Below, piece after piece: positions 483-33,883 of a stretch of 33,883 nt of DNA. The stretch lies in the IMG/VR virus record IMGVR_UViG_3300005664_000028, positions 1 through 33,883 of that record; one strand, written 5' to 3'. How positions within the stretch are numbered: position 1 is the stretch's first letter; every line of letters begins with the position of its first letter. The position numbers and the translations under genes were made by a program. The notes beneath the pieces were generated by a model. That model saw only the letters and a list, made by a program, of their open reading frames with translations. It did no database searches and was not told where the DNA came from. Source of the DNA: a virus.

Positions 483-510
483 TTATCGGCAAAAACACTG
501 GTCAGGTAAC
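483..510 (-). promoter_or_regulatory. Candidate phage-sigma promoter P1 (GTTAC-N15-GCCGATAA)
   Basis: On the minus strand GCCGATAA occupies 490-483, an exact match to the known -10 consensus of FliA/WhiG-type sigma factors. A GTTAC element lies 15 nt upstream at 510-506. The site falls in the 57-nt gap after the helicase stop codon. The expected start of transcription, about 476, is directly ahead of the ribosome site of the 52-aa gene. Confidence 0.55.
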
Positions 511-517
511 ACGTAAA

Positions 518-1969
518 CTAACTAAACAAGGAATCATACCTGTCAAGGTTGTCTTCTTGTTGTACTATAGTGGTAGTTCCACGCTCAGTAAAACAAGAAG
601 TAGCATAGTCAACCTGCAAAGGAACAGCATCACTAGTTTCACCATCACGGTTCTTAAGAACCTGAGCACGAACATCACCGTAACGACTTGTAGTATCTAA
701 AGCGAACACACTAACAACAACATCACTAGAGTTAGTAGCTTCCGAAGTCTCAGCCAAAGCAGACAGTGTGTAATGTCCAACACTTTCAGCTTCAGCCTGC
801 GCTGCGCGTGAAACCTGCCAAGGAGAAACGAGAGGGATACCGCGACCGTCATCAAAAGAAGTAGCAAACTGTTTACCTGCTTTGAGAATATCTGTTAGTT
901 CTTCTCGCACAGAATTGCGGCGACGATCCGACTTGAGCAGAGCAAAGTAGTCAATGATACCTAGGTCAATGTTAAACGTAGCTTGCAAACGATGGAACCT
1001 ACTCTCGACCATCGCAATCGTAGCCCCGCGCGGAACCTGCATGACATAACACACACCATGAGCAGGGTTGTTTCCGAAGTCCTCAGCTACTTCACGAAGC
1101 TTAATCTCTTGAGACTCAGTGAGCGTGCCAGCTTTAAGGTCACGCGTGTTCAAACCCTCACTCAATCCAAACTTAGATAGCTTAGAGTGTCGAGCAATCA
1201 ACTTACGACGAATCTGATCTCGAAGAGTTTCCGTTGTGGCAATGACAACATTCTTCCCTTGTTGCGTCGAAGCGTGCCATGCTAGTTGTGTGACTGAACT
1301 TGTCTTACCAGAGCCAGAAGCTCCGATGATCAAAGACATCTCACCATTCTGCAACCCGCCAACCTTTGCATCAAGAGCCGGGATGCCAAATAAAATACCC
1401 TCACCGCGACCCAAGGAATGCAATCGCTTACGCTCACTGTAATCCTCAAGGATCTCATTTACCTCAGCACGCACATCACCTTCAGGTGTGTCCTGCATCG
1501 ACAACTCACGATCAATCTCAGCAAACTTTGTAAGCAAGTGAGAACGTGCGTCAGAGTGTCCTGTGAGTTCATTGCCATCAGGAAGTTCAATACCCTTAGT
1601 AAGAATGGTCGTTGCTTCACGAAGGGCCAGATCTGTCTCACGCGTAGCAACCTGCTCACGCAGTTGATTCAATGACCAACGGAAGTCTGCATCGCTGACG
1701 TTGTTGACATATAGCAAGTCGTAAGTCTCAGCGTAAACCGCTGCCTTACCGGCATCGACCCGAGCCTTAGCAAGCTGATCGAGCAATGCCTGACGAGAAA
1801 GGATAGCCCCTGTAACAGCCGCGTACCGCTCCAAGAAAAGGAACGTGTTCTTCAAGACAGGATCGAGGAAGTGCCCCTCCGTCAGGTGGCGCAATGCCTT
1901 GTCAAGGAGGTCACGACGCTCTGGTATTATCGCAGCTAGAACGATTTGAGCATGATCCAAGTCAGTCAA
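518..1969 (-). CDS. DnaB-like replicative DNA helicase
   Basis: The 483-aa product has the layout of a replicative hexameric helicase: a helical N-terminal region (about 1-160) and a RecA-like ATPase core from about residue 190. Visible motifs are Walker A GASGSGKTS (216-224), Walker B LGIIDYFALL with Asp340, and a downstream ETSEATNSSDVVVSVFA segment like the conserved H3/H4 region that lines the DNA loops. Such proteins unwind DNA ahead of the replication fork using ATP. No in-frame ATG is near the N-terminus; TTG at 1969 is the first start after an in-frame TGA and lacks a clear ribosome site. The gene follows a 78-aa protein after a 30-nt gap. No primase fusion is visible. Confidence 0.85.
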   Translation of the reverse strand: MTDLDHAQIVLAAIIPERRDLLDKALRHLTEGHFLDPVLKNTFLFLERYAAVTGAILSRQALLDQLAKARVDAGKAAVYAETYDLLYVNNVSDADFRWSLNQLREQVATRETDLALREATTILTKGIELPDGNELTGHSDARSHLLTKFAEIDRELSMQDTPEGDVRAEVNEILEDYSERKRLHSLGRGEGILFGIPALDAKVGGLQNGEMSLIIGASGSGKTSSVTQLAWHASTQQGKNVVIATTETLRDQIRRKLIARHSKLSKFGLSEGLNTRDLKAGTLTESQEIKLREVAEDFGNNPAHGVCYVMQVPRGATIAMVESRFHRLQATFNIDLGIIDYFALLKSDRRRNSVREELTDILKAGKQFATSFDDGRGIPLVSPWQVSRAAQAEAESVGHYTLSALAETSEATNSSDVVVSVFALDTTSRYGDVRAQVLKNRDGETSDAVPLQVDYATSCFTERGTTTIVQQEDNLDRYDSLFS

Positions 1970-1999
1970 GTGTCAACCCAATCACTAAAAAAGAAAGTT

Positions 2000-2236: not shown

Positions 2237-2341
2237 ATGGGTGAATCCTTACGACGAGTAGTTGTCAAGTGGCTCTGAGCAACGCTAACATACGCGCTCG
2301 CCGCTTGTCTGGAATTGCGAACAGAATCGTGGGGAATTTCT

Positions 2342-3046
2342 TCAGGCTGTGAGAGTCTTCAAACTACTGTGCAATCTAAGCAGGGCAGTCGAATGAATCT
2401 TTGACACCTTTACCTCCGTTAAACCTAACATCTTCGCAATGATATGAAGATCGTGCCCCATATAGTAGTGAAGAGATATAATAGTAACAGTTTCTTCAGG
2501 TAGAGTTTCAATAAAATCTGACGCTAGATCAAGAACTTCGCGCTCAAAACGAGGCCCTTCTGGTGCCTGTGTTCGTAAAGAGTGTGACGCTTCAGAAGCA
2601 GCAGCCAACATATCCGGCGACATAGTGTGGTGCCCATTGTCAGCCACAGTGAGGACACGGCGTACCTGTTTCAGGGAAAGCCCAGAACGCTCAGCCATCT
2701 CCTCCTCAGTAAGCTCCTCTGCCTCCGAGATAGCCTTTAGCATCTTGGCACGAGCGCGAGTGGTACGAGTTGCCCAATCCAAAGACCGTAGGTGTTCAAC
2801 AAGCTCACCGTAAATCCTGTGCCGCGCGTACACAGAGAAGTAACTCAAGTCGTTGGGGTCATAGTCATTGCGCGCACAGTGAGGAAGCCATAAGTTAGCA
2901 GCCAACACTAGACCTAAATAAGCCTGACCCTTAAGATCGTCAAGAGAAACATTAGAACCCTGAGTCTTACGCCACATCGTGTACGCGAGAGACTCTGCAA
3001 TATCTAGGCGATCAGCGATAGCTTCTTCAAGATACGCAGGCAGCAC
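2342..3046 (-). CDS. RNA polymerase sigma factor, sigma-70 family, FliA/WhiG-like
   Basis: This 234-aa protein has all the parts of a group 3 sigma factor. Region 2 (about residues 37-97) ends in YARHRIYGELVEHLRSLDW, closely resembling the YAxxRIRGAILDELRxxDW signature of FliA and WhiG. Region 3 (about 110-132) contains EEMAERSGLSLKQVRRVL, a helix-turn-helix. Region 4 (about 175-230) contains LPEETVTIISLHYYMGHDL followed by IAKMLGLTEVKVSKIHSTAL, the -35-binding helix-turn-helix. It should redirect host RNA polymerase to phage promoters, probably the GCCGATA sites upstream of late genes (inference). The start is GTG 3046, bounded by an upstream in-frame TGA. No ribosome site precedes it, and a promoter-like -10 lies 6 nt upstream, so the mRNA may be leaderless. 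Confidence 0.88.
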   Translation of the reverse strand: MLPAYLEEAIADRLDIAESLAYTMWRKTQGSNVSLDDLKGQAYLGLVLAANLWLPHCARNDYDPNDLSYFSVYARHRIYGELVEHLRSLDWATRTTRARAKMLKAISEAEELTEEEMAERSGLSLKQVRRVLTVADNGHHTMSPDMLAAASEASHSLRTQAPEGPRFEREVLDLASDFIETLPEETVTIISLHYYMGHDLHIIAKMLGLTEVKVSKIHSTALLRLHSSLKTLTA

Positions 3047-3052
3047 CAGTCT

Positions 3053-3087
3053 ACTATATCATAACCAAGATAAAGTAGTATGTTCAA
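3053..3087 (-). promoter_or_regulatory. Candidate host-type promoter for the sigma factor gene
   Basis: The minus strand reads TTGAAC (3087-3082), an 18-nt spacer, TATGAT (3063-3058), with an overlapping TG-A-TATAGT extended -10 (hexamer 3058-3053). The distance from TATAGT to the GTG start is six bases, which fits initiation at or next to the start codon. The -35 overlaps the last codons of the SNF2-like gene. Confidence 0.5.
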
Positions 3088-4736
3088 CTGGCAATAAGAT
3101 TCAGCAATTCTAATCCAGAAAGTTGACGGAACAACTCGTTCGTCGTACCCCACACAGAATCAAGTAATGCCTGCTCACGTTCAAGAACAGCAAGATAATT
3201 CTCTTCCTGAGTATCCCGTGTCAAGAGGTTATGAACATAAACAGTCTTGTGATGACTACCATCTCGACTAATTCTACCTGCTAACTGCGTCATACGAGCC
3301 GGATTGAGAATCATATCCATGTTCACAAGGTGACGAGCACACTGCAAGTTCAATGACTGTTCGATAGCGGACGTGCCAATAAGAACTCGGCACCGAGGGT
3401 CATCCCAGAACCTGTCTTGAGAAGCCTTACGTGCCGCCTTATCTGGCTGCTCTCCCCAAATAGTTTCATACCCAATGTGTGCTGCATTTAGCCTATCTTG
3501 AATAGCACGAATAGAGTTTTTCCACTGAGCAAAGACTACAACTTTTTCAGTGGCAAACTCCCCACCATCCTCAAGACGCTCCATCAACCAATCAAGTTTG
3601 ACAGCAGTGCGAGGCCCGTCAGTTTCTCCAATAGAAACAAGACCAGTACAGATCTGAGCACCGTAAATAAGCTGAGCCATAGCCTCAGCGTGCTTGACCT
3701 GAACACCTGTCTCGCGAACAATCTTAAGAACACCTTGACGTAGCTCTTCATACTTAGCCCGCTGTGCTGGATAGAGGTCTAAGTACACATCGTTTGGAGA
3801 AATGGCAGGCATACTTACGTCATCAATATCAGACGGCGTACGACGAAGAACCATCGGAGCAATAAGACCCTTGAACTCCTGAATATTTTGGTATCCGACG
3901 ATACGCTTAGCCTTAGCCCCCGGCCCATGATACGAAGCATGAAAAACATTTTCTGTTCGCACGTATCGCTGAATGAATCGAAACTCAGAACCAAAAAGTT
4001 CCCGCCCGCCAATAGATTCCAGAACACCGTACATCTCAGGTAACCGTTTCTGCAAAGGCGTGGCAGACATGATCACCATACGAGGAGAACGATTTGCCAA
4101 ACGACGAATAGCGAACGCTGACTTGTTCTTCCTATTACGTAGCGTGTCTACGTCATCGGTAATGATGGCAGCAAACTGAAAGTTATCAAGGATCTCATCG
4201 TCTTTAAGTAGCATCTCTGGTCCGATGATGAGAACTTCCCACGAGTAACAGTACTTGTTCATACGTTCACGTTTAGTACCTGAAGCAACTTCGATTCGCA
4301 ACGACGGCATGACACGATGCAACTCATCACGCCACTGCAAAATAGCAGGAGCACGACACACAATAAGAATGCGCTTCTTTCCTCGTAGCTCGCCAGACTC
4401 CTTCATCATGGCGATCAGCAGCGCACAATTAACTGTCTTGCCGGTACCTGTCCCGTCTGCTAGAAGCGCACGCTTACGAAGGTACAACCACGTCGAGCCA
4501 ACTGTCTGGTGATTGCGAGGAAGTACTCCACAACGACGACACCCTGGCTTAGGAATCCCCGTACGAATTGTCCCATCAAAATCTTTCCACTGATGGTGGG
4601 CAAGACACGGCTTGTCATTCCACGTCTCTAGCGTAGGGAGTTGAACATGTTTTGCTATCTTAACTTGATCTGCAACCTTTAATCTATGTTCGTCAGACGC
4701 TAATACCTTAGAAAGTTTTTCTAGTTCTGGTGTCAC
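3084..4736 (-). CDS. SNF2/superfamily 2 helicase-like ATPase
   Basis: The 550-aa product carries the two-domain SF2 ATPase core. Motif I is LLADGTGTGKT (91-101), motif III is MSATPLQ (223-229), and motif VI is QLAGRISRDGS near residue 480. Motif II reads ITDDVD (192-197) where most relatives have DEAH or DEAD, so Asp replaces the usual catalytic Glu. An N-terminal C-x3-H ... C-x2-C set (C44, H48, C66, C69) could bind zinc. SNF2-type proteins translocate on double-stranded DNA and remodel protein-DNA complexes; in phages of this type they lie among replication genes. It overlaps the upstream 130-aa gene by 4 nt, so translation is probably coupled. Confidence 0.85.
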   Translation of the reverse strand: MTPELEKLSKVLASDEHRLKVADQVKIAKHVQLPTLETWNDKPCLAHHQWKDFDGTIRTGIPKPGCRRCGVLPRNHQTVGSTWLYLRKRALLADGTGTGKTVNCALLIAMMKESGELRGKKRILIVCRAPAILQWRDELHRVMPSLRIEVASGTKRERMNKYCYSWEVLIIGPEMLLKDDEILDNFQFAAIITDDVDTLRNRKNKSAFAIRRLANRSPRMVIMSATPLQKRLPEMYGVLESIGGRELFGSEFRFIQRYVRTENVFHASYHGPGAKAKRIVGYQNIQEFKGLIAPMVLRRTPSDIDDVSMPAISPNDVYLDLYPAQRAKYEELRQGVLKIVRETGVQVKHAEAMAQLIYGAQICTGLVSIGETDGPRTAVKLDWLMERLEDGGEFATEKVVVFAQWKNSIRAIQDRLNAAHIGYETIWGEQPDKAARKASQDRFWDDPRCRVLIGTSAIEQSLNLQCARHLVNMDMILNPARMTQLAGRISRDGSHHKTVYVHNLLTRDTQEENYLAVLEREQALLDSVWGTTNELFRQLSGLELLNLIAS

Positions 4737-5820: not shown

Positions 5821-6534
5821 TCACGGCGTTGGGTACAACGTGGTTGATGGATACAACGTGGTTGATGGGTAAGTATTAGACGGAGGAGTCTCTCCCCCGC
5901 CCGGATCAGGAGGTGTGATGGGAGGAGTGTAGCCACTGCTTTCCGGCGTGTACTCTGCTGTACCCGCACCAGTGCGTGTAATGAGTCGGCCAAAGGCTCG
6001 ATTGGCAAGAGGGTACCCAAGCTCATTAACATCAGACAGTACCGCCTTTGCCTTATAACTGATAGACATACCCTCTTTATATTGTGCAGGACTAAGAGAA
6101 TACGGACTCAGCTTAACCTTAAAAAATACGAATTCAAAATTGTGAAAGTTCTCATTACTATCCTTTGCTTGAACCTTAACAAGCAAAGGAGTAGGAGAAG
6201 GATTCAAATAGTCAGGAGACCACAGATCCATAGAAAGAAAAGAGTTGTCTGGATAAATGCCCAAATTCACAAACTCAGGAGCAAACTTAGAAACCAAAGG
6301 AAGAGAAATGAAACCAGACTCAATTTCTAAATCAATACAGCTAATAGAATTCCATGTGCTCACAACAACAGAGTTACTAAGCTCATCGACTGTCTCTACG
6401 TTAGCGGAGATACTTCCAGATCGTACACCGTAGATGTCCCCATCAATTGTTCCAGCACGCGTTTCACCATCAAGAATAGCGGCGTGAGAGATAGAGAAAC
6501 CCTCAACAAAGATTGCAGGCGTGTAGATAAGCAC
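5821..6534 (-). CDS. Second tail tube protein paralogue with Pro/Thr-rich tail
   Basis: Residues about 10-195 align with the tail tube protein encoded at 17141-17698. Shared segments include EGFSISHAAIL, GDIYGV, VxSTW, LNxxxxPxxxxVxAKDxN, and RAxGRL near the end. The paralogue then adds about 40 residues rich in Pro, Thr, Gly and Tyr, ending in a six-residue repeat (YPSTTL twice). Identity is scattered, so the duplication looks old or the copy was acquired. It is the last gene of the tail module, directly after the fibre gene, and starts at GTG 6534 with AGGAG 10 nt upstream. It may form a special ring at the tail tip or a decorated tube subunit (inference). The main tube gene has its own promoter candidate; this one does not. 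Confidence 0.8.
   Translation of the reverse strand: MLIYTPAIFVEGFSISHAAILDGETRAGTIDGDIYGVRSGSISANVETVDELSNSVVVSTWNSISCIDLEIESGFISLPLVSKFAPEFVNLGIYPDNSFLSMDLWSPDYLNPSPTPLLVKVQAKDSNENFHNFEFVFFKVKLSPYSLSPAQYKEGMSISYKAKAVLSDVNELGYPLANRAFGRLITRTGAGTAEYTPESSGYTPPITPPDPGGGETPPSNTYPSTTLYPSTTLYPTP
5834..5868 (-). repeat. Short tandem repeat, period 18 bp, in tube paralogue C-terminus
   Basis: The 17-base string TACAACGTGGTTGATGG (plus strand) occurs at 5834-5850 and 5852-5868. The period of 18 bases keeps the frame and encodes the repeated hexapeptide YPSTTL. Confidence 0.85.
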
Positions 6535-6547: not shown

Positions 6548-8251
6548 CTAACTGATACCCGAAGACAAAGACCAACCATTCAGATCTCGGAATCGGACAG
6601 TTTGCGTACCATACACAAGTACGCCAGCATAAATGTTTAGCTCTTCAAATTCTGCAATGATGTTCTCTTCGTTAGTACGATAGACAGCAACACCATCAAC
6701 AAAAGCAGTAGCCATAGCACTAGAAATTTCTAGTCTCATGGTGTGCCAACCGTTACTCAGAGCAGTAATAGCCTTGGCAGTAGTCTCCTGTGTCGTGCCT
6801 GCCCAGAACGTCACCTTGTCGTCGCCGCTAACTCTCAGAGAGACACCACCAGTGCCAGCCGCGAAGCCGGCTGATGTATTAACAGCAACGCCAACATACT
6901 CGCTAGCCCCATCAAGAGAAGCTTGCACTTCAAAGTCAACTTCGACAGCATACCCAGCGAAGCTAGCAGAGAAAGGAGTGTTGTGACGAGCAGTGCAAAG
7001 AGTAGAAGCGCCAGCGCCTACACAGTTCACCTGACCTGAAACAACAGTCCATGTCCCGTTCTGCGTAGTGAGGTTAGTGGTAGCAGTAAGACCATCACTA
7101 ACGTCTGCTACCCACACAGGCCAATAAGAGTATGAACGATTCAAACCGCTCAACGTACTCTTTGTCACGCGCATGATGTAGTTAAGAGCCATTGACGGCT
7201 GAACAATCCCAAACGGGAGAGACGTTCCCCCCATTCCTCCGGTGTTCCCAGTGAAGACAGGAGTCGTGTACCAGTGCGCGTGCGCTCCCGCTGCGGTACC
7301 GACTGCTGTTCCTCCTGTCTTCGTACGCGCTACGTTTTCAGTTCCACCTGAAAGGTTAGGAGCATTAATGTCTGCTTCGACGTAGTGGTAGTGCAACCCT
7401 TGAACATCGGTCGTTCCAGCAGGGTGCTGATGAGACATGGAATGCGTATGCTCTACCATGTTGGCAGGTTCCAGCGCACGAGTCCCACTACCAAACTTCA
7501 CACCAATAGAGCTAGCACCGATAGTGCTAGAGGAATAGTAACCAACGATAGTACGATCTCGAAGGTCAGGAATATTAAAATGTGTGCCGTCAGCACTGCC
7601 AAAAGTAGTACCGATAACAGCAAACAAATCAGGATAAGAGACTCGAAGAAGAGAAGCTCCGTTACAAATAGCCCAACCATCAGGAGCGGTGCTGCCAGCG
7701 TAAGCAACAATAGTACCCACAGGGGTATCAACACCAGCAGTGATACTAACGTTCAACTCACTGTTAAAGTCAATGTCTTCCCAGGAGATTGTTGAAGCCC
7801 CTGCCTTAAGATACTTTCCAGAGGAACCTTTAGTAAGCTCTGTGTACGTACCAGCACCAGTGCCGACAGCAAGAGAGCCAAGCTGAGTAAAAACTGCCTT
7901 TGGAAGATACGTACCACCAGCAGTTTGAAGACTATCAATATCGTCTTGAATAGCTGCAACGTCAGCAGCAGCAGCAAACTTCAATGTCGGACGAACCAAC
8001 ATACGAGAACCTGTTCCCGTATCTAGCCACAGAGGGTCTGTCTCGTTATCGGGTCCGTAAAACTGCACAAGTCCTTGATCGTTAGAAAGAACTTCAGTGA
8101 CAGTCTCACCAAGAATGTTGAGCAGATCAGTGACCTGAGTACCGCTAGTGCGGGAGTCCCACACCTCAACAGGAACGCTAGGTCGCGGGTTTCCCGTCGC
8201 CACATCAATGACGTAATCACCGGGAGTAGACGCGTACAAAGAGCGGGCCAT
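6548..8251 (-). CDS. Tail fibre with collar domain and C-terminal lectin-like domain
   Basis: The 567-aa protein begins with a small strand-rich domain (1-90), then a heptad-like segment ADVAAIQDDIDSLQ (96-109) suited to trimerisation. The phage tail collar domain follows (about 177-235) with PVGTIVAYAG, PDGWAICNG and FNIPDLRDR. A His-rich stretch (HTHSMSHQHP) lies in the receptor-binding head typical of collar fibres. The last 170 residues predict as an all-beta concanavalin A/laminin G-like jelly roll (WHTMRLEISSAMATAFVDG, FRDLNGWSL). It likely binds the host surface. ATG 8251 has GGAGG at a 7-nt spacer. A GCCGATAG promoter candidate lies about 40 nt upstream. Confidence 0.85.
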   Translation of the reverse strand: MARSLYASTPGDYVIDVATGNPRPSVPVEVWDSRTSGTQVTDLLNILGETVTEVLSNDQGLVQFYGPDNETDPLWLDTGTGSRMLVRPTLKFAAAADVAAIQDDIDSLQTAGGTYLPKAVFTQLGSLAVGTGAGTYTELTKGSSGKYLKAGASTISWEDIDFNSELNVSITAGVDTPVGTIVAYAGSTAPDGWAICNGASLLRVSYPDLFAVIGTTFGSADGTHFNIPDLRDRTIVGYYSSSTIGASSIGVKFGSGTRALEPANMVEHTHSMSHQHPAGTTDVQGLHYHYVEADINAPNLSGGTENVARTKTGGTAVGTAAGAHAHWYTTPVFTGNTGGMGGTSLPFGIVQPSMALNYIMRVTKSTLSGLNRSYSYWPVWVADVSDGLTATTNLTTQNGTWTVVSGQVNCVGAGASTLCTARHNTPFSASFAGYAVEVDFEVQASLDGASEYVGVAVNTSAGFAAGTGGVSLRVSGDDKVTFWAGTTQETTAKAITALSNGWHTMRLEISSAMATAFVDGVAVYRTNEENIIAEFEELNIYAGVLVYGTQTVRFRDLNGWSLSSGIS

Positions 8252-8291: not shown

Positions 8292-8319
8292 CTATCGGCA
8301 GAATCGTCTACCTAGTAAC
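8292..8319 (-). promoter_or_regulatory. Candidate phage-sigma promoter P2 (GTTAC-N15-GCCGATAG)
   Basis: GCCGATAG lies at 8299-8292 on the minus strand with GTTAC 15 nt upstream (8319-8315), the same -35-like string and spacing as P1. It sits between the Gp37-like gene and the fibre gene, with the -35 overlapping the last codons of the former. Confidence 0.55.
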
Positions 8320-17757: not shown

Positions 17758-17784
17758 CTATCGGCGCTTTCTCCTTTCTACTTA
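17758..17784 (-). promoter_or_regulatory. Candidate phage-sigma promoter P3 (TAAG-N15-GCCGATAG)
   Basis: GCCGATAG occupies 17765-17758 on the minus strand and TAAG lies 15 nt upstream (17784-17781), close to the FliA/WhiG pattern TAAA-N15-GCCGATAA. It is in the 79-nt gap ahead of the tail tube gene, giving a leader of about 50 nt. Confidence 0.6.
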
Positions 17785-22761: not shown

Positions 22762-22869
22762 TGGGAAAACTCCTAACTAAAGTGATGTAACAGTTAGTCG
22801 CGTTCCTTGCGGAACCGGCCTGCGCCACTCCTAAGAGTCATCCGGCTGGCCTAAGTCTATCTACTAGCA

Positions 22870-22896
22870 ATATCGGCTAAGTACAAATACAACTAC
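22870..22896 (-). promoter_or_regulatory. Candidate phage-sigma promoter P4 (GTAG-N15-GCCGATAT)
   Basis: GCCGATAT lies at 22877-22870 on the minus strand, within the 238-nt gap ahead of the capsid gene. The tetramer 15 nt upstream is GTAG, a weak match to the -35 pattern. The predicted leader is about 100 nt and contains small hairpins such as GTTCC/GGAAC. Confidence 0.5.
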
Positions 22897-22999: not shown

Positions 23000-23173
23000 C
23001 TATCTACTAATAAGAGAATGGACAATAGTCAACCCGCACCCAACTACCAACGAAATCAGCAAAACAGCCAACAACCATGCGTAGAATTTTCCGGCATCTT
23101 CGGAGACAAAAGCAGAGAACACAGCAAGAACTATCCAAAAACAAAAAACAAGAAAGAGAACTGCGACCGTCAT
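23000..23173 (-). CDS. Two-helix membrane peptide of 57 aa
   Basis: ATG 23173 overlaps the epimerase stop codon as ATGA and the frame ends at TAG 23000-23002. The product consists of two hydrophobic segments, about residues 2-22 (VAVLFLVFCFWIVLAVFSAF) and 32-52 (AWLLAVLLISLVVGCGLTIV), joined by a short charged loop (SEDAGK), with a basic end (HSLISR). This is a clear helical-hairpin membrane protein. Possible roles are membrane anchoring of the modification enzymes or a holin-like function; neither is shown. The tight overlap argues that it belongs to the cassette. Confidence 0.65.
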   Translation of the reverse strand: MTVAVLFLVFCFWIVLAVFSAFVSEDAGKFYAWLLAVLLISLVVGCGLTIVHSLISR

Positions 23174-24021: not shown

Positions 24022-24599
24022 AGTTCCACCTTCTCTGCCACCCACATTTGCGTAGACTCGGTTCCTTCAAACACTCCACCAAGCATAACTTCATACCCAG
24101 CGCCCTCAAGAACGTTCTGAAAACCTTCCACGTCCCAGCCCCACAAATGATAAGGATAGTGAGAGTCAGGAGTCTCACCATTAGGAACAGATGCTACCAA
24201 GTATGTTGTCTGTAAGTCTTTTAAAAACCCGTGAGGGTCTACCATGTGCTCAAGAACTTCAGACAAAACAGCAACGTCACTGCGATAAGAAGTCTCCACA
24301 AAATTAGAAAACACAACAGGTCGGCCCAACTCCACCGCCTGATCGACGTTAGCCCGACAAAAGTCTAGGCCCAGAAGATCGTCTCCCTCAAGCAAAGAAA
24401 GAAGTCCGCCATTACCGCAACCGTAATCAATCAAAGACTTCTCTGTGCCAATCTCTTGAAACAAAGCATTGACAAGGCCAGCCACTGTACGAATACGTGC
24501 GCCGTGCCCCTCCTCATGAAGATGATCAGCAGCCTCTCGGTCTACGTGAAACTCCTCAGAAGAATAAAACTCCTCTGTGTCAAAACGATACTCAGTCAC
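24018..24599 (-). CDS. Class I SAM-dependent methyltransferase (second of a pair)
   Basis: The 193-aa protein has motif I LIDYGCGNGGLL (about 56-67), the acidic strand LGLDFCRANV, and the post-I segment VAVLSEVLEHMVDP. These mark the class I fold that binds S-adenosylmethionine; the LEH phrase is usual in sugar and small-molecule O-methyltransferases. The C-terminal end STQMWVAEKVEL resembles the end of its neighbour (YQMWVAR), suggesting that the two genes are paralogues. The start is GTG 24599, giving a GTGA overlap with the preceding gene; GTG 24611 is possible. Probable substrate is a sugar or a modified virion protein (inference). Confidence 0.82.
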   Translation of the reverse strand: MTEYRFDTEEFYSSEEFHVDREAADHLHEEGHGARIRTVAGLVNALFQEIGTEKSLIDYGCGNGGLLSLLEGDDLLGLDFCRANVDQAVELGRPVVFSNFVETSYRSDVAVLSEVLEHMVDPHGFLKDLQTTYLVASVPNGETPDSHYPYHLWGWDVEGFQNVLEGAGYEVMLGGVFEGTESTQMWVAEKVEL

Positions 24600-25150
24600 C
24601 GTGCCACCCACATCTGGTAACGAACGTCCAACTCTGGAAACTCTAAGAACGACATAGCAACAGGCTGAAAAGAAGCAGCCTCCAACATAGCCGCAACGTC
24701 AGAAGCTGACCATGCCCAGTAATGTTCAAAATTAGGGATGGTCTCATCACAAGGAGTAGACAACACTAGCTGACGAGTCTTAGCACGAAGCTCCCTGAGC
24801 ACAGCATCAGGATCATCGAGATGCTCTAACGTTTCAGAAAGCACAAAAGCTCCCACAGAAGGAATCTGATGGACAGTCTCTTCAATGGGTCCGCAATACA
24901 CGTTACCTTCTACAAAATCTCCGAGGTAAACAGTGACACCGCGAAAATTCTCCGCGATGCCAGTAGCAATGTAACCATCGCCGCAAGACAGGTCTGCGAT
25001 AGAAGTAAAAGGTTCAAGGTTTGCGGAAGCAAACTTCACAGTCTCTTCAACTCGAATAATATGATCTGTCCATTTCGTATGGTCATATGTATTCGAGTAA
25101 ACCTCAGCAAGCTGACGCTCTGAGTACTTCGGACGCAGACGCTTTCTCAC
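24596..25150 (-). CDS. Class I SAM-dependent methyltransferase (first of a pair)
   Basis: The 184-aa protein has a basic N-terminus (MRKRLRPKYSERQLAEVYS), motif I SIADLSCGDGYIA (about 50-62), the strand VTVYLGDF, and VLSETLEHLDDPDAVLRELR, which together define a class I methyltransferase. A WAWSASDVAAMLEAA segment matches the typical C-terminal helix before the final strands. GTG 25150 overlaps the stop of the upstream glycosyltransferase as GTGA. It probably methylates a sugar or other group within the same pathway as its neighbours. Confidence 0.82.
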   Translation of the reverse strand: MRKRLRPKYSERQLAEVYSNTYDHTKWTDHIIRVEETVKFASANLEPFTSIADLSCGDGYIATGIAENFRGVTVYLGDFVEGNVYCGPIEETVHQIPSVGAFVLSETLEHLDDPDAVLRELRAKTRQLVLSTPCDETIPNFEHYWAWSASDVAAMLEAASFQPVAMSFLEFPELDVRYQMWVAR

Positions 25151-25824
25151 CAGAGAGCCTTCACCTTCTCTACATCTGACTGAAACTGCGTAGCCAGATA
25201 GTTTTGATATGCCAACGAGTCATCAGAGTACATCTTTTCTGAGTTGACTTCCGCATAAAGAGCGTCTTGCGTAGACTTTCCAGTAGAAAAATGTAAGTGC
25301 TCAAGAATCACATCGGGAAGATACGTGATACGTCCAACTGCCTTACCAAGATCTAGCCAATAATTATCAAGGTACAAGTGCGTCTGCTCTGGTGGACAGT
25401 ACTGACCTGTCGCCAAGATAATGTCACTTGAAATAAGAATAGCCGTGGGCAAAGCCTCACCTTGCAAAAGATCATTAGCGTAAGCCATGCCCCCGCCCCC
25501 TACAGCAAATGCTAAGGACTCGTCCCAGCACGGAGTCTTAGGGCAGTGATCATCGCCCAAGAACCCGACCGACGCGTACTCTCCGGCCAATCGCACACCG
25601 ACATCATTAAGAGTTGGACCAAGACGAAGACGCGGACCAACCTCTACGCGAAACTCTGGGTATGTCTCTTCATCAAGAAGTGCCAAGTACTGATCGACAG
25701 TAGGATCATCGTCATCAATACGAACAACAAGGTCAGCTACAGCAGAAGTAGCTTTCCATGCCTGCAAAAGTCGAGCAATGTTATTAGGTCGTCCCCTAGA
25801 AGGACACAGCCAAACTGATTCCAT
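25147..25824 (-). CDS. GT-A fold glycosyltransferase
   Basis: The 225-aa product starts with VWLCPSRGRPNNIARLLQAW, typical of nucleotide-diphospho-sugar transferases, followed by VVRIDDDDPTVDQY (D37-D40), which provides the DxD metal site. The phrase SVGFLGDDHCPKTPCWDESL (D91, D92) marks the acceptor-side half, and ITYLPDVILEHLHF the end of the core. It is short for a full family 2 enzyme but complete for a minimal GT-A domain. It is the first gene of the head-module cassette. ATG 25824 is used; GTG 25830 is also possible, and neither has a clear ribosome site. A terminator lies 48 nt upstream, so it needs readthrough or its own promoter. Confidence 0.8.
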   Translation of the reverse strand: MESVWLCPSRGRPNNIARLLQAWKATSAVADLVVRIDDDDPTVDQYLALLDEETYPEFRVEVGPRLRLGPTLNDVGVRLAGEYASVGFLGDDHCPKTPCWDESLAFAVGGGGMAYANDLLQGEALPTAILISSDIILATGQYCPPEQTHLYLDNYWLDLGKAVGRITYLPDVILEHLHFSTGKSTQDALYAEVNSEKMYSDDSLAYQNYLATQFQSDVEKVKALW

Positions 25825-25867
25825 AATCACACACTATCAGAAAGTCAAACAAAAAGAAGTGGAACAC

Positions 25868-26862: not shown

Positions 26863-27423
26863 ACGGTACTCCTCTTGCGACAGGACGACTACTTCACCAA
26901 CATTATCGGCAGAAGCAGCAATCAACTCTTCATAATCTTCTAGTTCAGTAATGTAAGGACGGTTTGTCACACACACATGCAGCAAAGTAGGTCCGACCTT
27001 CTCACCACTCTTAGTATCAGTGTAGTCCAAGTGCATCATTGCTGACGCGCCTAGCAACGTCTTACCAAGCTTATCCGCAGCATCAGCATCACGAGCATCA
27101 ATAACTGCGTAAATCTTTCCGTCAACTTCTTCAATGCCGACAACCTCACCGATATTACGAGTGGGATCTTCGGTATGTTCATTCGACGGACCAGCGAGCG
27201 GAACCTGAACAATGTCACAAACATTGTTGTCAAAGTTACTCTTCAACTTTGACACGAAGTCTTCGTCCACCTTCAACGTCTGCTTCGTAGCAGGGTGAAT
27301 AAGGTTACCCATATTCAAAATGTGCTTACGAAACAACCTGCCCCGCTTCGTACGAGACATCTCAACAAAGCTGCCATCTTCCGTACGAGACGGAATGATA
27401 ACTGCGCCCTCAAAGTCAGGCAT
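26326..27423 (-). CDS. Prohead protease with C-terminal scaffold (Mu I-like)
   Basis: The 365-aa protein has an N-terminal protease-like domain (about 1-165) and a C-terminal helical scaffold part. Likely catalytic residues are His83 (GPSNEHTEDPTRNIGEV) and Ser127 in LLGASAMMHLD, followed by LLHVCVTNRPYI, which match the order seen in I-like and assemblin-type proteases. It would cleave scaffold and itself during capsid maturation. ATG 27423 has AAGGAG with a 6-nt spacer and overlaps the end of the upstream gene by 8 nt. The assignment of catalytic residues is by pattern only. Confidence 0.78.
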   Translation of the reverse strand: MPDFEGAVIIPSRTEDGSFVEMSRTKRGRLFRKHILNMGNLIHPATKQTLKVDEDFVSKLKSNFDNNVCDIVQVPLAGPSNEHTEDPTRNIGEVVGIEEVDGKIYAVIDARDADAADKLGKTLLGASAMMHLDYTDTKSGEKVGPTLLHVCVTNRPYITELEDYEELIAASADNVGEVVVLSQEEYRMPTQEELIAELKTTYGVDVAALTAQVETLSVQNEGLVAELAEAKPAVELSAKLSSALVESDFVKLSAGEELTGDSIVGSIVALGEENITLSAKLETYIKSDAEHTVDALVAEGRIIPAQRDAMIELRLSNEEMFDKLVPEAAVVELSAESGTSVTDEDSRKQEEDIDAEVARLSATLR

Positions 27424-28807
27424 CTTCTTCTCCTTCCGAATCAACGGAGTCGGTAACTACTTCTTCTTCAGTAGAATCAATCACGTCGTTGTGATCGTCT
27501 ACGTCCTCCACCACTTCACCAGAGGCTTCTTCTTGGACATCTGGGACTTCTCCACCCTCTTCAACATCTTCTGGTACTGATGGTGGTTCGGGATCGGATA
27601 CAGAGTCAGACCCTGTATCTGGCAACTCAGAAGAGTCAACAACCTCTTCACCGATACTATCGTCAATATCATTATCAATAGTTTCAGGAACAGCTTGATC
27701 ATCTGGTGCCTCCTCAGTAGTGAGTGCTATTGACTCGTCCTGAAAATCAGGAACGAAAATAAGGGGCATATCAATGCCAGCAAGTTTCACTTCAGGACGT
27801 TTCCGTTTCTTCGGGAGGGACTTGACTTCCTCACTGACTCCCTTAATAAAACGACTACGAACTTGCTTACCAGTAAGATCCTTTGTTTCACCGTACTGAT
27901 TAACCTGCTTACCAGTACCATCCTTATACACAATCATGTGGCTAGTTCCCTTGCCTGCCTTGGTATAGATGCCGTGCTTAACGCCACCCACCTCATCAAG
28001 AGAAGCAAAGAACTTACGAACAGAATTACCAGAAGGCAGCTTTCGAGAAGGGACGTTGTTGCCACTATCGTCAACCCCGCTCACCATCCCTGTTTCTGGG
28101 TCATACCAAAAAAAGAAAGCTGGGGTACCAGGAACCTGAGGAGGAAGTGTGCCCACACGAGCACCTACGGGAACGCGAACATCTCGACCTTTCCAGTGGA
28201 AGATCTCTGTCTTTACCTCGCCCTTCTTATCCTCCTCAACAGCGTCTATCTGAGGAGGAGCATCTTGTGACTGAGGATCTTTGGCAGCAGGAGCCTCAGC
28301 AGCAGGATCAAAATCAATGTTCTCTAGTTGAGCAGGAAGATTGCCTTGTTCAATACCCTTCAACCGATTCATAAACAACTGAAGCTGCGCTGCGGTTGAT
28401 CCTTTAGCAAGCTGCTCAACTGCAATATCCGCGCGAGCCTCCAACGCACCCTTCTGCAAAAGAAGTTTAACAAGTGCTCCCTTGGCAGCAGTCATTTCCT
28501 TCTTATCACGCGAACGCAACTTCGGAGCCTGCTCCCCTTGAGAAGGTTCTGCCTGCTTCTTATCCTTAGCGGCGGGAACTTTAAGCTCTGTTTGCTTTGT
28601 CTCGATCAGTTTATTGCGAACAGATCTGACAGCGGTACGAGCAGACGGACGAGCGCCCGACTGTTCATATGCGTCCTTCTCCACAATAGAACCGATAGGC
28701 TGTCCGTATCGTTGCGCTCCCGCCTCCGTGCGAACACGCAAGACAGCAAGCTCAGCCTCCCCATCAGGAGACTGAAGCAACGAAACAAGATCAGACACAC
28801 GAGACAA
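27416..28807 (-). CDS. Unknown 463-aa head-module protein with acidic tail
   Basis: The best start is TTG 28807, with AGGAGG at a 7-nt spacer. The product has a helical N-terminal third with Ala/Lys-rich low complexity (LKVPAAKDKKQAEPSQ), a middle folded part (about 205-340) with strands such as KGRDVRVPVGARVG, TPAFFFWYDPETGMVSG and GIYTKAGKGTSHMIVYKDG, and a strongly acidic C-terminal 100 residues (EEVVEDVDDHNDVIDSTEEE). I do not recognise a family. Its position between the MuF-like and protease genes suggests a head protein, perhaps internal to the capsid or assisting assembly (inference). Confidence 0.6.
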   Translation of the reverse strand: MSRVSDLVSLLQSPDGEAELAVLRVRTEAGAQRYGQPIGSIVEKDAYEQSGARPSARTAVRSVRNKLIETKQTELKVPAAKDKKQAEPSQGEQAPKLRSRDKKEMTAAKGALVKLLLQKGALEARADIAVEQLAKGSTAAQLQLFMNRLKGIEQGNLPAQLENIDFDPAAEAPAAKDPQSQDAPPQIDAVEEDKKGEVKTEIFHWKGRDVRVPVGARVGTLPPQVPGTPAFFFWYDPETGMVSGVDDSGNNVPSRKLPSGNSVRKFFASLDEVGGVKHGIYTKAGKGTSHMIVYKDGTGKQVNQYGETKDLTGKQVRSRFIKGVSEEVKSLPKKRKRPEVKLAGIDMPLIFVPDFQDESIALTTEEAPDDQAVPETIDNDIDDSIGEEVVDSSELPDTGSDSVSDPEPPSVPEDVEEGGEVPDVQEEASGEVVEDVDDHNDVIDSTEEEVVTDSVDSEGEEDA

Positions 28808-28839
28808 AACGGTTCCTCCTACACACATAATCGGCAAAA

Positions 28840-29046: not shown

Positions 29047-30106
29047 CAGATTTCCTCCAAGAGAATGCCTTACGGACAGTGTTGAGGATAGTATCGCGAA
29101 ACTCAAAAAACTTTTTCTGCGGCAAGTCTTTAATCTGTTGAGAAGAGATACCAAAGAAAGCATTGACTACCTTCTTTGACTGCTTCTGAGCAAAAGAACG
29201 AAGACCGGCAGGAGAATTTTTCCCCTTGTAAACAGTGTCCTCTTTCTTCAATGCAGTAATAAGAAGAACGCACCGACAGTGAGGGTGTCGAGGAGGTCCG
29301 TACAAATCAAGATAAACTTTCGGAGGCGTGGCATAAGACTGCGTAGCACTGAACTTACCGTTCAAAGGAACTTCTGTACCGTGCAACGCCGTACAGGTAG
29401 GACACGGCGGCTTAGTGGTGTCAGAAAAGTTTGCTACCCATACCTTGCTGAGCTTCCACTCCTTGCCAACAGAAGCATATGCCTGCGCGTGCCCTTCAGT
29501 CATTCCACGCTGAACAGCCACAGACGCACTAGCGTTAGATCGGGAGGCTACTGGCCCCAATGCCTTGATCACAGACTCAGCTACCCAACGCGAACGTCGA
29601 ATGCTTGTCTCACGGCGCTGCTGAGTTGTTTGCTTAGGATCGTCCTCGAAACGCGAAGACTCATACAATGTCTGAAATGCGTCAAATGCCCGCTTCTCCA
29701 TATCGTAAGACTGCTCACGCACATCCTTGATAAGAGCCTTCAAGTAGGGAGACGTTCCAACAGATCCCTCTTTTATATCTACGCCCAGCAACGCAGCTTC
29801 TTCCTTTGCCTGCTCGTTGCCGACTAGCGCCCCATCTGCAAAAGCCTTCTCAACAATCTTGACTACACTGATACGCGTCTTATCAAGAGCCTTAGCAAAA
29901 GCAGTCTCTACATCACTACGATGAAGAATCTCTTCAACAGTAGAACTGTTATTGCGTTGAATGATCTTTGTAAGAATCTGAAGAAACTCTACTAGTGCCT
30001 CGTTGTACGCGTCACGAACATCAGCGCGAGCCTTAAGATCTAGCTGAACAGCTTGCGGTTTGTACTTATCAGTCAGAGCTAGAAGATCCGTAAACTCTGC
30101 AACCAT
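29039..30106 (-). CDS. MuF-like minor head protein
   Basis: The 355-aa product is helical in its N-terminal two thirds, with SRWVAESVIKALGPVA and the EGHAQAYASVGKEWKL region. It then shows the zinc-binding-like pattern of Mu gpF C-terminal domains: KPPCPTCTALHGTEV, a loop with FSATQSYATPP, then GPPRHPHCRCVLLI. Such proteins are packaged in the head next to the portal. The gene starts at ATG 30106 in a TAATG overlap with the portal stop codon, which also supports this assignment. The C-terminal 70 residues end in a basic helix (RDTILNTVRKAFSWRKSDG). Confidence 0.8.
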   Translation of the reverse strand: MVAEFTDLLALTDKYKPQAVQLDLKARADVRDAYNEALVEFLQILTKIIQRNNSSTVEEILHRSDVETAFAKALDKTRISVVKIVEKAFADGALVGNEQAKEEAALLGVDIKEGSVGTSPYLKALIKDVREQSYDMEKRAFDAFQTLYESSRFEDDPKQTTQQRRETSIRRSRWVAESVIKALGPVASRSNASASVAVQRGMTEGHAQAYASVGKEWKLSKVWVANFSDTTKPPCPTCTALHGTEVPLNGKFSATQSYATPPKVYLDLYGPPRHPHCRCVLLITALKKEDTVYKGKNSPAGLRSFAQKQSKKVVNAFFGISSQQIKDLPQKKFFEFRDTILNTVRKAFSWRKSDG

Positions 30107-31593
30107 TACAACTCCAAAGAGTCAGGATCTGCAAGAGTCTCCATTGCGGATAGAGCAGCAGGGTCTTGCGGTGGCACGTTTCCACTCGAAGAATCCTGCG
30201 GAACTGCGGCGGCAGAATCTAACCCAGCACTACTCAAAAAGTCTTGAAACGCCTGATCATTAACTCCTTCAGAAGCAGCCTTCGCCCGAGCACGTTCATC
30301 AATAACCGCATAGTCAATGTCCAACCCAAGCTCCTGTGACATGCGCTTCTCAAGCTCAGCCATGAACTCAGGAGTGACGTTCGCTCCGGCTCCGGCTGTA
30401 GCCAAACGATCAAAGAGAAGAGAGATAGAGCGACGTTGCTCATCAGTGAACGTACCCCAACTAAAGGTTGGGTACTTCCCAGTGCCAAAGTTCCAATCAA
30501 TGAACTTAGGAATCAAACGCTGGTTAATAACATCAGCAACTTCTCCCATAATGGACTGAAGCATCATGATGAACATAGCGTCAGACTGCTGACCAAAGTC
30601 AACAATAGCCTTGTCACCGCCCTCTTGCTGATCGAAGAACGCAGCAAGAACAGACTTAGACATCTGAGAATTGTGGTGATTGATCATGCTCAAGAAATCA
30701 AACGAAGATCCAGGATACTCATTACGAACCTTAAAACCGGGAGGAAGCATCAAAGACTGAGCGAACCCAAAGTCTCGCAACGCAGCTTTAAACTTAGCAG
30801 TATCAGACGCAGAAGCCCCAGAAGGAATGTCACCAATACGAGAACCGACCGCACGGTGTTGAGCAGCCAAGTGCGCTAGATAGTAAAGCTTAACCTTCTT
30901 ATCATAGTGGTAGAAGGCACTCTGAAAATAAGACACTCCGTAAAATGGGCGTTCCTCATCATTAGCAGTAATCCAGAAAGCTCTACTACCGGGAATGTTT
31001 ACATCTTTAAGCTCGCCCTTAAACATAACACGCTGACGAAACCCAGTAAAGTTTCCGTTACCGTCAACCAAGAAAGATACAGTCTCAGACGGACGGTACG
31101 CCGCTTTCTTCAGACAAACCTTCCCCTTCAAAGGTCCAACATTAGGAACGTGGTAGACCTCTTCAAAAGCAGCAAAGCCGTCAAAGACAGACATCAACAT
31201 CTGAGAGATAACCTGAGAGAAAGAAATCTCCATCCCACCAGAAGAGTAAGGAAGGTTGAACATTCGATCAATAAATTCTGCCTCCTCAGTGCCATCTTCA
31301 GAGGGGATAACCTTCACAGATTTAAGAGCGGAACGAATAGGCAAAGTAATAAGACGGTACAGTGCGCGTGCCTGACCATCCGTACGACGCATAGCCACAA
31401 GCTGCGAAATAGACGGACCATCTTCCTCGGAATAAGAAGACTGAATCTCTATCTGACCAGCAGGAGCACCGGGAGAAGTGTATGCAGAAGCGAAGGGAAG
31501 GTTAAGCGTAACCCCCATCTCTGCGCCTATCTCAGACTTTGACGGCTTAGGCAAAGCACCAACTGACTGTTGACCAGTCCCTTTAGTTGCCAC
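30106..31593 (-). CDS. Portal protein
   Basis: The 495-aa protein lies between terminase and MuF-like genes, the standard portal position. It contains RALYRLITLPIRSALKSVKV, ISQMLMSVFDGFAAFEEVY, a wing and clip region with GFRQRVMFKGELKDV, and FYGVSYFQSAFYHYDKKVKL followed by GGDKAIVDFGQQSDAMFIMM. The pattern fits the large portal family that includes Mu gp29-like members. The N-terminus and the last 40 residues are low in complexity (Ser, Pro, Gly-rich). GTG 31593 has GGAG about 8 nt upstream. A dodecameric portal is the entry for DNA and the docking site for the packaging motor. Confidence 0.85.
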   Translation of the reverse strand: MATKGTGQQSVGALPKPSKSEIGAEMGVTLNLPFASAYTSPGAPAGQIEIQSSYSEEDGPSISQLVAMRRTDGQARALYRLITLPIRSALKSVKVIPSEDGTEEAEFIDRMFNLPYSSGGMEISFSQVISQMLMSVFDGFAAFEEVYHVPNVGPLKGKVCLKKAAYRPSETVSFLVDGNGNFTGFRQRVMFKGELKDVNIPGSRAFWITANDEERPFYGVSYFQSAFYHYDKKVKLYYLAHLAAQHRAVGSRIGDIPSGASASDTAKFKAALRDFGFAQSLMLPPGFKVRNEYPGSSFDFLSMINHHNSQMSKSVLAAFFDQQEGGDKAIVDFGQQSDAMFIMMLQSIMGEVADVINQRLIPKFIDWNFGTGKYPTFSWGTFTDEQRRSISLLFDRLATAGAGANVTPEFMAELEKRMSQELGLDIDYAVIDERARAKAASEGVNDQAFQDFLSSAGLDSAAAVPQDSSSGNVPPQDPAALSAMETLADPDSLEL

Positions 31594-31621
31594 GTCTCAA
31601 CTCCACAGTATGTAATAAGGC

Positions 31622-33883
31622 TTACCCATTATATCGGCTGAAACCGCCTATACTGTACAAGTCCATGCCCGAAGGGGTTTCTGGAAACCCAATAGGATAG
31701 CTGTCATAAACAGAAGCAGTCTCGAATACAATATCAGACTCTTCCTCAGTTTCAGCCCCGCCAATAGACACAGCAGATAAAGCAGCACACGCCACCGCGT
31801 CAGCAAGGTCTTTACCAGAAGATGCAGGATGATCAACTTTCCCATTGGGCATCTTCATCAACGCAGTAAGTTCTTCATACAACATCTTGGAATTAGGAAG
31901 ACTAATACGTCCCTCATACATCAGATCTCGAAGGTTGCGCCACACACTATCATCACGGTCAGCACTTACTTTCTTAGTTCTGATTCCCTGAGTGTGCAAA
32001 ATCTGCATACTGTCGGCACTGTTATGAACAACAACACCAGAGGACACAGCAAAATTATGGTGCTCATCTACAGAAATGTCGTACACGTCTTGAGTAGGAG
32101 CAGGAACAACAGACACAACCTTATGGTTATAAACAGCCTGTTTACTTCTCCAACGGCGTGACTTCATAGCATTATAGCTAGGAGGGTTTCGATAATCTTT
32201 ATACTCCCGCCACTGGTTGTACCCGTGCTCGCGCGCACGAGCAATCACTGTGGTTCGAGAGCAACCAAGTTCTGCGGCTACTTCACGTAAACCAATAGTA
32301 AGACCCTGCTCTAAGAGGCTAGTAACTGCCTCTTCTACTAATTCCCACGTAAGATCCTGCTTGTACCTATTAGTGTTTTTCCCTCTAAGACCAGACTGTC
32401 TCTCGGAGAGACTGGCACTAATTCGTTTCTTATGGGCCTCTGCCCACTCAGGGTCAGACCACAACTTCTCAAACCTACCACTAGCAAGACGTGAATGAAG
32501 AGCAGAATGATCTGAGCTACTCATAATCTGCAAGTTATCTGGACTGTTATTAGTGCTAGAGAGATCAACGTGATGAACAACCTCGCCCTTATCAGCAGGA
32601 CGATGAACAGCGCCAGCCGACATACTGTGAGTATACTGCCATCGAGACTGACCAACAGCCGCCTCAGGATGGTGAACCTGCTCGTACTCCCGAGACGTAG
32701 GAGAAATCTTTCTCGTCCTACGATAAAGCGGCATAAGACTGTCACCCTCAGCAAGAAGACCGGCTTCCTTATACGAACCATCTCGCAACATAAACAGGTG
32801 GTCAGAAGTACAGGTGACTGTCTCACTGTTATCTAACGTGACAGTCACCATGTCAGAACGAGTGCCAGTCTTCCAAGCCTTTGTCACCTTGCCGGGAACT
32901 ATACGCCCGTCTTTGTTGACAGAATAGACCCAAAATCCTCCTTCAGGATGAGTCTCGGCAAGCTCCTTGATCGGAACCTCCCGCCCGTCTAGCAACGAGA
33001 TAGAAGTGTCTCCCGACAAGCACTGGAACTGGTCGTAGGACACAAGAGCGATGTTGAACCCTCGTCGTCTAAGTTCTAGTACTAACTGTCGAACCCACCT
33101 AATCTGAATCTCACGCTCTGGTTTCTGAGAAAGGTCTGCCTCATAACCGATAGCAAAATCTACATAGATATTAGGACGAGACTCCCATAGCTCAGTCTCT
33201 GCTCCGTCCTCGTCCGTAGTTATTGAACTAACGTCTTGCCAATCAAGAACATGAAGCATCGCCAGTCCAGCGCGGTCGTGACGAAGAGCCAAGTCCGCAT
33301 GAATGACGTACAAAGCCCCCGGCTTAGGAACCATAGTCCCAAAATCGTGGTCTGCTCGCCACACAGGAGCACCAGACTCACTACCAAGAGAGTAGCTAAT
33401 AGTGAGAGGACTATCATCGGCACGCATACAAGATCTGATAGCTTGAAAGTTTCGGAAGTACGGATCAACAGCACGCTCTGGCTTGCACTCATACTTTGTA
33501 CGAGCCATGAGAGGATCTTTTTTGTAGTCGTCAGCGAAGTGTGACTTCTTCCTATTGGGGTGAACTTCCCACGTAGCGTACGGACCCGACGTGTAGTACC
33601 GAGACTCCTCGCCCATCTCCTCTTGATCTTGCTTACCGCGTTCCAGCAATTTCAAAATGGGAGACCCCACATACCGGGGGTAAGAAATATGAACGACCTT
33701 AAATGCTTCGGGGAAACGTGTCTTAGAGGACGTGTGCAACATATCAATAATAGTCTCGGCGCTATTAACAAAGTCCCTAGCCCTAGCGCCAGGAGCATCC
33801 TTCGACTTAAACCCATCAAGCTCATCAGCCACACCGAGAAGAAGGTTCAAACCTTCCTGAGACTCTGCCTCTGAGTGACCAGA
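31622..33883 (-). CDS. Terminase large subunit, 5' truncated, with intein
   Basis: The frame is open to the right edge, so the N-terminal ATPase part is missing. The first visible residues (SGHSEAESQEG, then LLLGVADELDGF) hold the Walker B region of the packaging ATPase. The C-terminal RNase H-like nuclease has YVIHADLAL with one catalytic Asp, SYDQFQ/SADSMQIL with the second, and SSGKDLADAVACA with the third. An in-frame intein splits the second motif between Gln and Ser. The protein cuts and packages phage DNA into the prohead through the portal encoded next. Excluding the intein, 419 residues are visible, so perhaps 100-200 are outside the window. Confidence 0.9.
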   Translation of the reverse strand, partial: SGHSEAESQEGLNLLLGVADELDGFKSKDAPGARARDFVNSAETIIDMLHTSSKTRFPEAFKVVHISYPRYVGSPILKLLERGKQDQEEMGEESRYYTSGPYATWEVHPNRKKSHFADDYKKDPLMARTKYECKPERAVDPYFRNFQAIRSCMRADDSPLTISYSLGSESGAPVWRADHDFGTMVPKPGALYVIHADLALRHDRAGLAMLHVLDWQDVSSITTDEDGAETELWESRPNIYVDFAIGYEADLSQKPEREIQIRWVRQLVLELRRRGFNIALVSYDQFQCLSGDTSISLLDGREVPIKELAETHPEGGFWVYSVNKDGRIVPGKVTKAWKTGTRSDMVTVTLDNSETVTCTSDHLFMLRDGSYKEAGLLAEGDSLMPLYRRTRKISPTSREYEQVHHPEAAVGQSRWQYTHSMSAGAVHRPADKGEVVHHVDLSSTNNSPDNLQIMSSSDHSALHSRLASGRFEKLWSDPEWAEAHKKRISASLSERQSGLRGKNTNRYKQDLTWELVEEAVTSLLEQGLTIGLREVAAELGCSRTTVIARAREHGYNQWREYKDYRNPPSYNAMKSRRWRSKQAVYNHKVVSVVPAPTQDVYDISVDEHHNFAVSSGVVVHNSADSMQILHTQGIRTKKVSADRDDSVWRNLRDLMYEGRISLPNSKMLYEELTALMKMPNGKVDHPASSGKDLADAVACAALSAVSIGGAETEEESDIVFETASVYDSYPIGFPETPSGMDLYSIGGFSRYNG
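31631..31657 (-). promoter_or_regulatory. Candidate phage-sigma promoter P5 (TACA-N15-GCCGATAT)
   Basis: GCCGATAT lies at 31638-31631 on the minus strand with TACA 15 nt upstream (31657-31654), three of four matches to TAAA. It overlaps the last codons of terminase and would give a leader of about 30 nt for the portal gene. Confidence 0.5.
32021..33022 (-). mobile_element. Intein with HNH-type homing endonuclease region in terminase
   Basis: The 334-residue element begins with Cys (CLSGDTSISLLDG, block A) and ends with VSSGVVVHN followed by Ser as the +1 residue. Block B is visible as TVTLDNSETVTCTSDHLFML with the T-x2-H motif, and the C-terminal block F as YDISVDEHHNFAV. Between them are VVHHVDLSSTNNSPDNL and a second H (SSDHSALHSRL), fitting an HNH nuclease. 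A helix-turn-helix (LREVAAELGCSRTTVIARA) and a basic YKDYRNPPSYNAMKSRRWRS segment probably bind DNA. All splice-critical residues (Cys1, block B His, final His-Asn, Ser+1) are present, so splicing should be active. No LAGLIDADG motif is seen. Confidence 0.92.

Follow-up and report, generated by a model that had tools for sequence, protein, structure and literature searches.

GCCGATW elements and a sigma factor gene in the window

The virus record IMGVR_UViG_3300005664_000028, 33,883 bases long, analysed over its whole length and called the window below, is probably a fragment of a larger phage genome. All of the 33 genes that we called in it (33/33) lie on the minus strand, and they include terminase, portal, a MuF-like protein, scaffold/protease, decoration, capsid, tail tube, chaperone, tape measure and tail genes, as well as an SNF2 helicase, a sigma factor and DnaB. 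Gaps between these genes make up about 6–8% of the window, somewhat above the few percent assumed in an earlier reading made from the sequence alone (the sequence-only reading). Here we describe a heptamer, GCCGATW, which recurs at gene junctions of the window and which very probably serves as the −10 element of late promoters that would be read by the FliA/WhiG-like sigma factor encoded in the same window.

In agreement with the sequence-only reading, GCCGATA was found eight times on the minus strand and not at all on the plus strand, with true starts at 484, 8293, 12589, 17759, 22871, 26243, 26904 and 31632, the earlier coordinates having been 0-based. Dinucleotide shuffles contained the word on average 1.92 times on both strands together, at most six times and never eight times, which lowers the chance expectation from the previously claimed two to about one per strand. 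Of the eight matches, four fall between genes and three (12589, 26243 and 26904) within coding sequence; the remaining one lies among the final codons of the terminase gene, directly ahead of the portal gene. The five sites earlier listed as lying at gene junctions are real, although the one at the portal gene does not fall in a gap, and a sixth had been missed: GCCGATT at 28829–28835, in a 32-nucleotide (nt) gap ahead of the gene at 27416–28807. Together, the gaps hold five GCCGATW sites, compared with 0.14 expected from first-order Markov sequences modelled on the gaps.

All six junction sites are on the minus strand. GCCGATA precedes the gene for a 52-amino-acid protein (site 484–490, gene 302–460), the tail fibre gene (site 8293–8299, gene 6548–8251), the major tail (tube) gene (site 17759–17765, gene 17141–17698), the major capsid gene (site 22871–22877, gene 21760–22761) and the portal gene (site 31632–31638, gene 30106–31593). 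Exactly 6 nt past the heptamer, all six sites carry RTAR (GTAA, ATAG, GTAG, GTAG, GTAA, GTAG), a shared feature that the sequence-only reading did not report and that is found at this offset in none of the three coding matches (0/3). RTAR fits 1.7% of gap positions, and the probability of finding it in six of six is near 4e-10, with about 15 possible offsets allowed for. The tetranucleotide plausibly places an A 9 nt beyond the last base of the heptamer as the predicted +1, at 475, 8284, 17750, 22862, 28820 and 31623 for the sites at 484, 8293, 17759, 22871, 28829 and 31632, respectively. At the portal site, the GTAA overlaps the terminase stop codon, and the site itself overlaps a perfect TATAAT.

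A −35-like box is suggestive only: GT is present at −20 in the sites at 484, 8293, 17759 and 31632, is one base off in 22871 and is absent in 28829, so that the shared box proposed earlier applies to a part of the sites. The identity of GTTAC in two of them holds, for 484 (506–510, minus strand) and 8293 (8315–8319, minus strand), both boxes being weak.

The sigma factor gene (2342–3046, minus strand) encodes 234 amino acids with domains 2, 3 and 4, and its position and FliA/WhiG resemblance were recovered as first described, the latter as a distant resemblance. In a ranking of subfamilies, FliA_WhiG (TIGR02479) came first (E 4.7e-27, 95.2 bits), followed by FliA (PRK06986), with SigBFG at 1.1e-12 (48 bits); with Pfam, region 4 alone passes the cut-off. 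The closest solved structures by sequence are Escherichia coli FliA and Streptomyces venezuelae WhiG, all PDB matches being FliA or WhiG. An all-helical structure model derived from 18 phage sigmas (predicted local distance difference test score 87.4) gave SigD, sigma-28 and WhiG as top Foldseek matches with probability 1.0, at template modelling (TM) scores of about 0.3, which are low because domain placement differs. Residues R87, D90, R94 and R97 align with R84, D87, R91 and R94 of FliA in region 2.4/3.0, which we take to have a role in reading the −10 element; across the phage sigma family, D90 and R97 are invariant, and R87 and R94 nearly so. The published −10 consensus of FliA/WhiG sigmas, flagellar and WhiG alike, is GCCGATAA (PMC8325347).

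The element in related phages

Searching IMG/VR with the window's capsid protein yielded 166 relatives, of which 80 were kept. These belong to a widespread group of large (~130-kb), mostly uncultured bacterial viruses, with one isolate, Microbacterium phage Magritte (capsid 60% identity), published as a singleton with no transcription programme described (PMC11663251). A search of 84,980 bacterial and archaeal genomes gave no capsid relative, in keeping with virulent phages. The sigma factor itself found no relatives as an IMG/VR query because its sequence changes quickly (family members share about 30% identity), and the capsid protein took its place; likewise, the sigma alignment was dropped as a genome-scan query for being too divergent, and one family sigma used as a query gave two weak bacterial matches only. 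Of 40 records examined in a profile search, 22 were found to encode a FliA/WhiG-like sigma, among them every one of the 16 above 100 kb. The 13 relatives that were mapped in full have the sigma gene on the downstream side of the structural module, close to the SNF2 helicase gene.

Genes in the relatives were called with a simple script of our own that favours starts with ribosome sites, a bias that works against the result that follows. In 14 genomes, including the window, CGAT was found exactly 13 nt before the start codon 40 times, compared with a median of 4 at other offsets, and this was replicated in 47 further non-redundant loci (40 at offset 13, median 2 elsewhere); pooled, 80 of the 2,934 start codons that lack a ribosome site have CGAT 13 nt ahead of them. 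Among the 180 permutations of GCCGAT, each followed by W and placed at offset 15, GCCGAT itself occurred nine times and every other one at most twice. The 80 pooled CGAT sites are enriched in C before the core, T or A after it and GGC just before the ATG, and depleted in Shine–Dalgarno-type purines. The natural reading of this pattern is a class of leaderless promoters whose start codon would coincide with +1, unlike the junction sites of the window, which have leaders with ribosome sites (a Shine–Dalgarno sequence in that of site 484). The elements found in the family, GCCGATW/NCCGATTA, match the FliA/WhiG-type −10.

A second positional signal was observed at the capsid gene, where 20 of the 66 distinct loci have CCGATW in the bin from −150 to −100. 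Every other 50-bp bin from −500 to +500 about the capsid start contains it in 0–2 loci, and the antisense strand of the −150 to −100 bin in none. The relatives also differ in sigma subtype: at the place of DWxxR in group A sigmas, those of group B, which includes Magritte and its sigma gp47, mostly have a DHVPRRQR-like stretch. At the capsid promoter position, CCGAT[ATG] occurs in 10 of 12 group A loci and 0 of 11 group B loci, and all 11 of the latter, several of them near-identical, carry an ATCC-type sequence before GAG. CCAATCC-TGAGTAGC-like sequences stand at this position in L036, L038, L039, L041, L047 and L053 and are probably the group B promoter. Group B forms a single clade in both the capsid tree and the sigma tree.

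If every gene with a recognised structural gene no more than 3 kb away is counted as late, the CGAT class of group A genomes comprises 22 late and 16 other genes, as against 0 late and 14 other genes for a second leaderless class of host type (p 9e-5). The host-type class has TTGAC near −35 and TANNNT at −12, whereas the CGAT class is without TTGAC; three group B genomes added eight more host-type leaderless sites, all non-late (8/8). Repeats of the host type, TTGAC ... GTCCTAAGATAGAGAC-ATG, were also seen in G017 (L173, L174) at small non-late genes (contig coordinates 75942, 77515, 91286, 94331, 95655 and 96273), and the leaderless GTCCTA-type of this genome, at one point treated as a separate class, proved to be the host-type TTGAC class. 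As controls, we used four actinobacteriophages without an annotated FliA-like sigma (Crosby, Colucci, Hendrix and Quhwah, the last two infecting Magritte's host), in which CGAT at offset 13 was found at 0 of 327 starts (p 4e-4 versus 80/2,934).

Capsid leader RNA and neighbouring genes

Downstream of the capsid promoter of the window, a leader RNA with four covarying helices (22798–22852, minus strand, 53.7 bits) starts 10 nt after the predicted +1. In most relatives, this element of 54–66 nt follows the promoter and lies about 85–135 nt before the capsid start. Across 49 leader sequences, 94.8% of cells are paired in the four-helix structure, both partners have changed in 13 of 15 pairs, and covariation scores 0.522, compared with 0.189 for shuffled sequences and at most 0.145 for slid structures. 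When a model of the leader was run on 14 genomes, 13 of them, including Magritte and the window, had a single copy in the parts searched, located at the capsid gene; G014 and the control phages had none. An IMG/VR pattern search returned 47 stretches, 20 of them new and non-redundant, with a capsid homologue next in 20 of 20; CCGATW lies within 50 nt upstream of the leader in 11 of these 20 contigs and on the antisense strand in none. The leader RNA was also located in the L001–L080 capsid leaders and at L081:20024–20084. Rfam 15 gave the window and L006 leaders chance-level matches far under the gathering scores and no credible family. Our guess is that the leader controls capsid translation or serves as a binding site, and it is possibly the most novel item of this analysis.

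Around the sigma factor gene, an SNF2-type helicase gene (3084–4736, minus strand) adjoins it in a conserved synteny, and a DnaB-like helicase gene (518–1969, minus strand) lies downstream. The major tail (tube) gene at 17141–17698 has a Magritte relative annotated as major tail protein; it is one of two tube paralogues (5821–6534 and 17141–17698, minus strand) with 37% identity, both of which match phrog_36442, of unknown function. An intein-like insert of about 330 amino acids (CLSGD...VVVHNS, with HNH endonuclease matches) splits the terminase large subunit at about 32024–33022 (minus strand) and is absent at the same place in 13 relatives. Nucleotide-sugar epimerase and glycosyltransferase genes (18022–19158 and 23170–25830, minus strand) were noted between the decoration and capsid genes, and a second glycosyltransferase upstream of the tube gene is syntenic in relatives.

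Proposed late promoters, rival explanations and known systems

The late-promoter interpretation first put forward in the sequence-only reading is supported by tests that do not depend on the window, namely positional conservation upstream of the capsid gene, a leaderless class at a fixed distance, the bias towards late genes, empty controls and a sigma factor in all large relatives. We hold with good confidence that GCCGATW sites are −10 elements which the phage's FliA/WhiG-like sigma would recognise on host core RNA polymerase, and the late genes are most likely switched on independently of the principal sigma of the host. The element, its fixed spacing, its conservation and its late bias are observed, as is its co-occurrence with the sigma gene; from the last, and from the match to the flagellar consensus, we infer that the phage sigma drives the regulon, and binding to the sites, timing and actual transcript starts are likewise inferred. 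According to this proposal, the host vegetative sigma would transcribe early genes from TTGAC/TANNNT promoters, after which the accumulating phage sigma would shift RNA polymerase to GCCGATW promoters driving the portal, scaffold, capsid, tail tube, fibre and other late genes. Transcription would begin at an A or G 9 nt past the last base of the heptamer, a predicted +1 that in many relatives is the first base of the start codon and would yield leaderless mRNA.

Several observations weigh on the other side. The sigma factor scores about 95 bits where the curated TIGR02479 cut-off is 189.6 bits, a value reached by 0 of the 40 records searched; thus, the earlier description as a homologue of a motility or sporulation sigma stands for the closest subfamily but needs the word divergent. 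Bare GCCGATA shows no genome-wide excess in the 13 other genomes, and it is position-aware tests alone, not bare word counts, that detect the signal in relatives. Forty-six of the 66 capsid loci are without CCGATW in the −150 to −100 bin, and 16 of the 38 group A genes of the CGAT class are not near structural genes. With a 16-position matrix built from the leaderless sites, the regions upstream of the capsid gene scored no differently from their reverse strand (Wilcoxon p 0.13), perhaps reflecting spacer composition that varies with GC content, and a plain positional count of CCGATW replaced it. In addition, a −35 TAAA is absent, the leaderless sites of the family as a whole show no counterpart of the GTWA of the window, transcript start points are sequence-based predictions, and the shift of sigma and promoter in group B, being confined to a single clade, is one evolutionary event and lends modest support.

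Real promoters of this kind might instead be read by a host sigma of the FliA/WhiG/SigD type, with the phage sigma acting elsewhere, for example on host genes. Flagellar and WhiG sigmas share the consensus GCCGATAA (PMC8325347), so that a host member of this class would be able to recognise the elements; we nevertheless consider this unlikely, as the Microbacterium foliorum phages Hendrix and Quhwah, which are without a FliA-like sigma, have no CGAT leaderless class, the sigma gene belongs to the syntenic core of the family, and promoter type shifts with phage sigma subtype, albeit in one event. That the signal stems from whole or partial host sigma-A promoters of the ordinary kind, with GCCGATA as an incidental resemblance, is very improbable. 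TATAG or TATATAG does occur near several window sites, and the TATAAT at the portal site means that a host sigma could use it, a further point to set against the phage sigma; however, the separate host-type class with TTGAC and TANNNT is never found at late genes in the sampled genomes, and the CGAT class is without TTGAC. That chance and codon usage clustered the heptamer at junctions is hardly credible: three of the eight GCCGATA matches do lie in coding sequence, and relatives show no enrichment of the heptamer as such, but the idea is contradicted by positional conservation in independent relatives as well as by the shuffle and positional tests made on the window.

Recognition of GCCGATW by the phage sigma, if true, would mean that a sigma type of motility and sporulation serves as a viral late switch. 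A broader scenario, on which we are evenly divided, is that this phage group adopted a flagellar/sporulation-type sigma as its late switch, that sigma and promoter co-diverged into two subtypes (GCCGATW versus GATCC/CAATCC types), that late mRNAs are often leaderless, and that a structured leader in the capsid mRNA, hitherto undescribed, tunes capsid output. The analysis offers a concrete, testable transcription programme for a large, almost wholly uncultured group of ~130-kb phages, with Magritte on Microbacterium foliorum as the isolate in which it is testable now, together with natural sigma–promoter pairs for specificity studies and a new RNA element at the major capsid gene.

Phage sigmas with late promoters and phage sporulation sigmas are already known; we found no description of a FliA/WhiG-like phage sigma with matching late promoters in the open-access literature. 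In T4 and SPO1, a phage sigma (gp55 and the SPO1 late sigma, respectively) acts on host core polymerase to switch late genes on, the arrangement proposed here. T4 late promoters (TATAAATA) require the DNA-replication clamp and SPO1 uses other motifs, and to our knowledge neither sigma is FliA/WhiG-like. Phages phiEco32 and 7-11 encode a sigma with middle and late promoters (PMC4331800) and share with our group a phage-specific motif before structural genes and host-type promoters for the early part; their core motif is TGATGT, whereas the window has a FliA/WhiG-like sigma, GCCGATW and, in relatives, many apparently leaderless starts. Phage-encoded sporulation sigmas of the SigF/SigG type, which affect host sporulation (PMC9429907), are likewise homologues of a developmental bacterial sigma, but the window sigma scores 48 bits against SigB/F/G and 95 against FliA/WhiG, and is accompanied by matching sites in the phage's own DNA. 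In Microbacterium cluster EC phages, a sigma-annotated gene occurs with an 18-bp intergenic motif to which it is putatively linked (PMC7302621, PMC9224216); their oriented, suspected regulatory repeats recall ours, yet the sigma-annotated gene of Quhwah has only 77 codons, and the EC motif is unrelated and lies 21–30 bp before starts. Bacterial FliA, SigD and WhiG provide the best-scoring subfamily, the three-domain architecture and the −10 GCCGATAA, and the phage sigma differs from them in falling under the curated cut-off, in having no clear TAAA −35 and in an apparent regulon that consists of the phage's own late genes.

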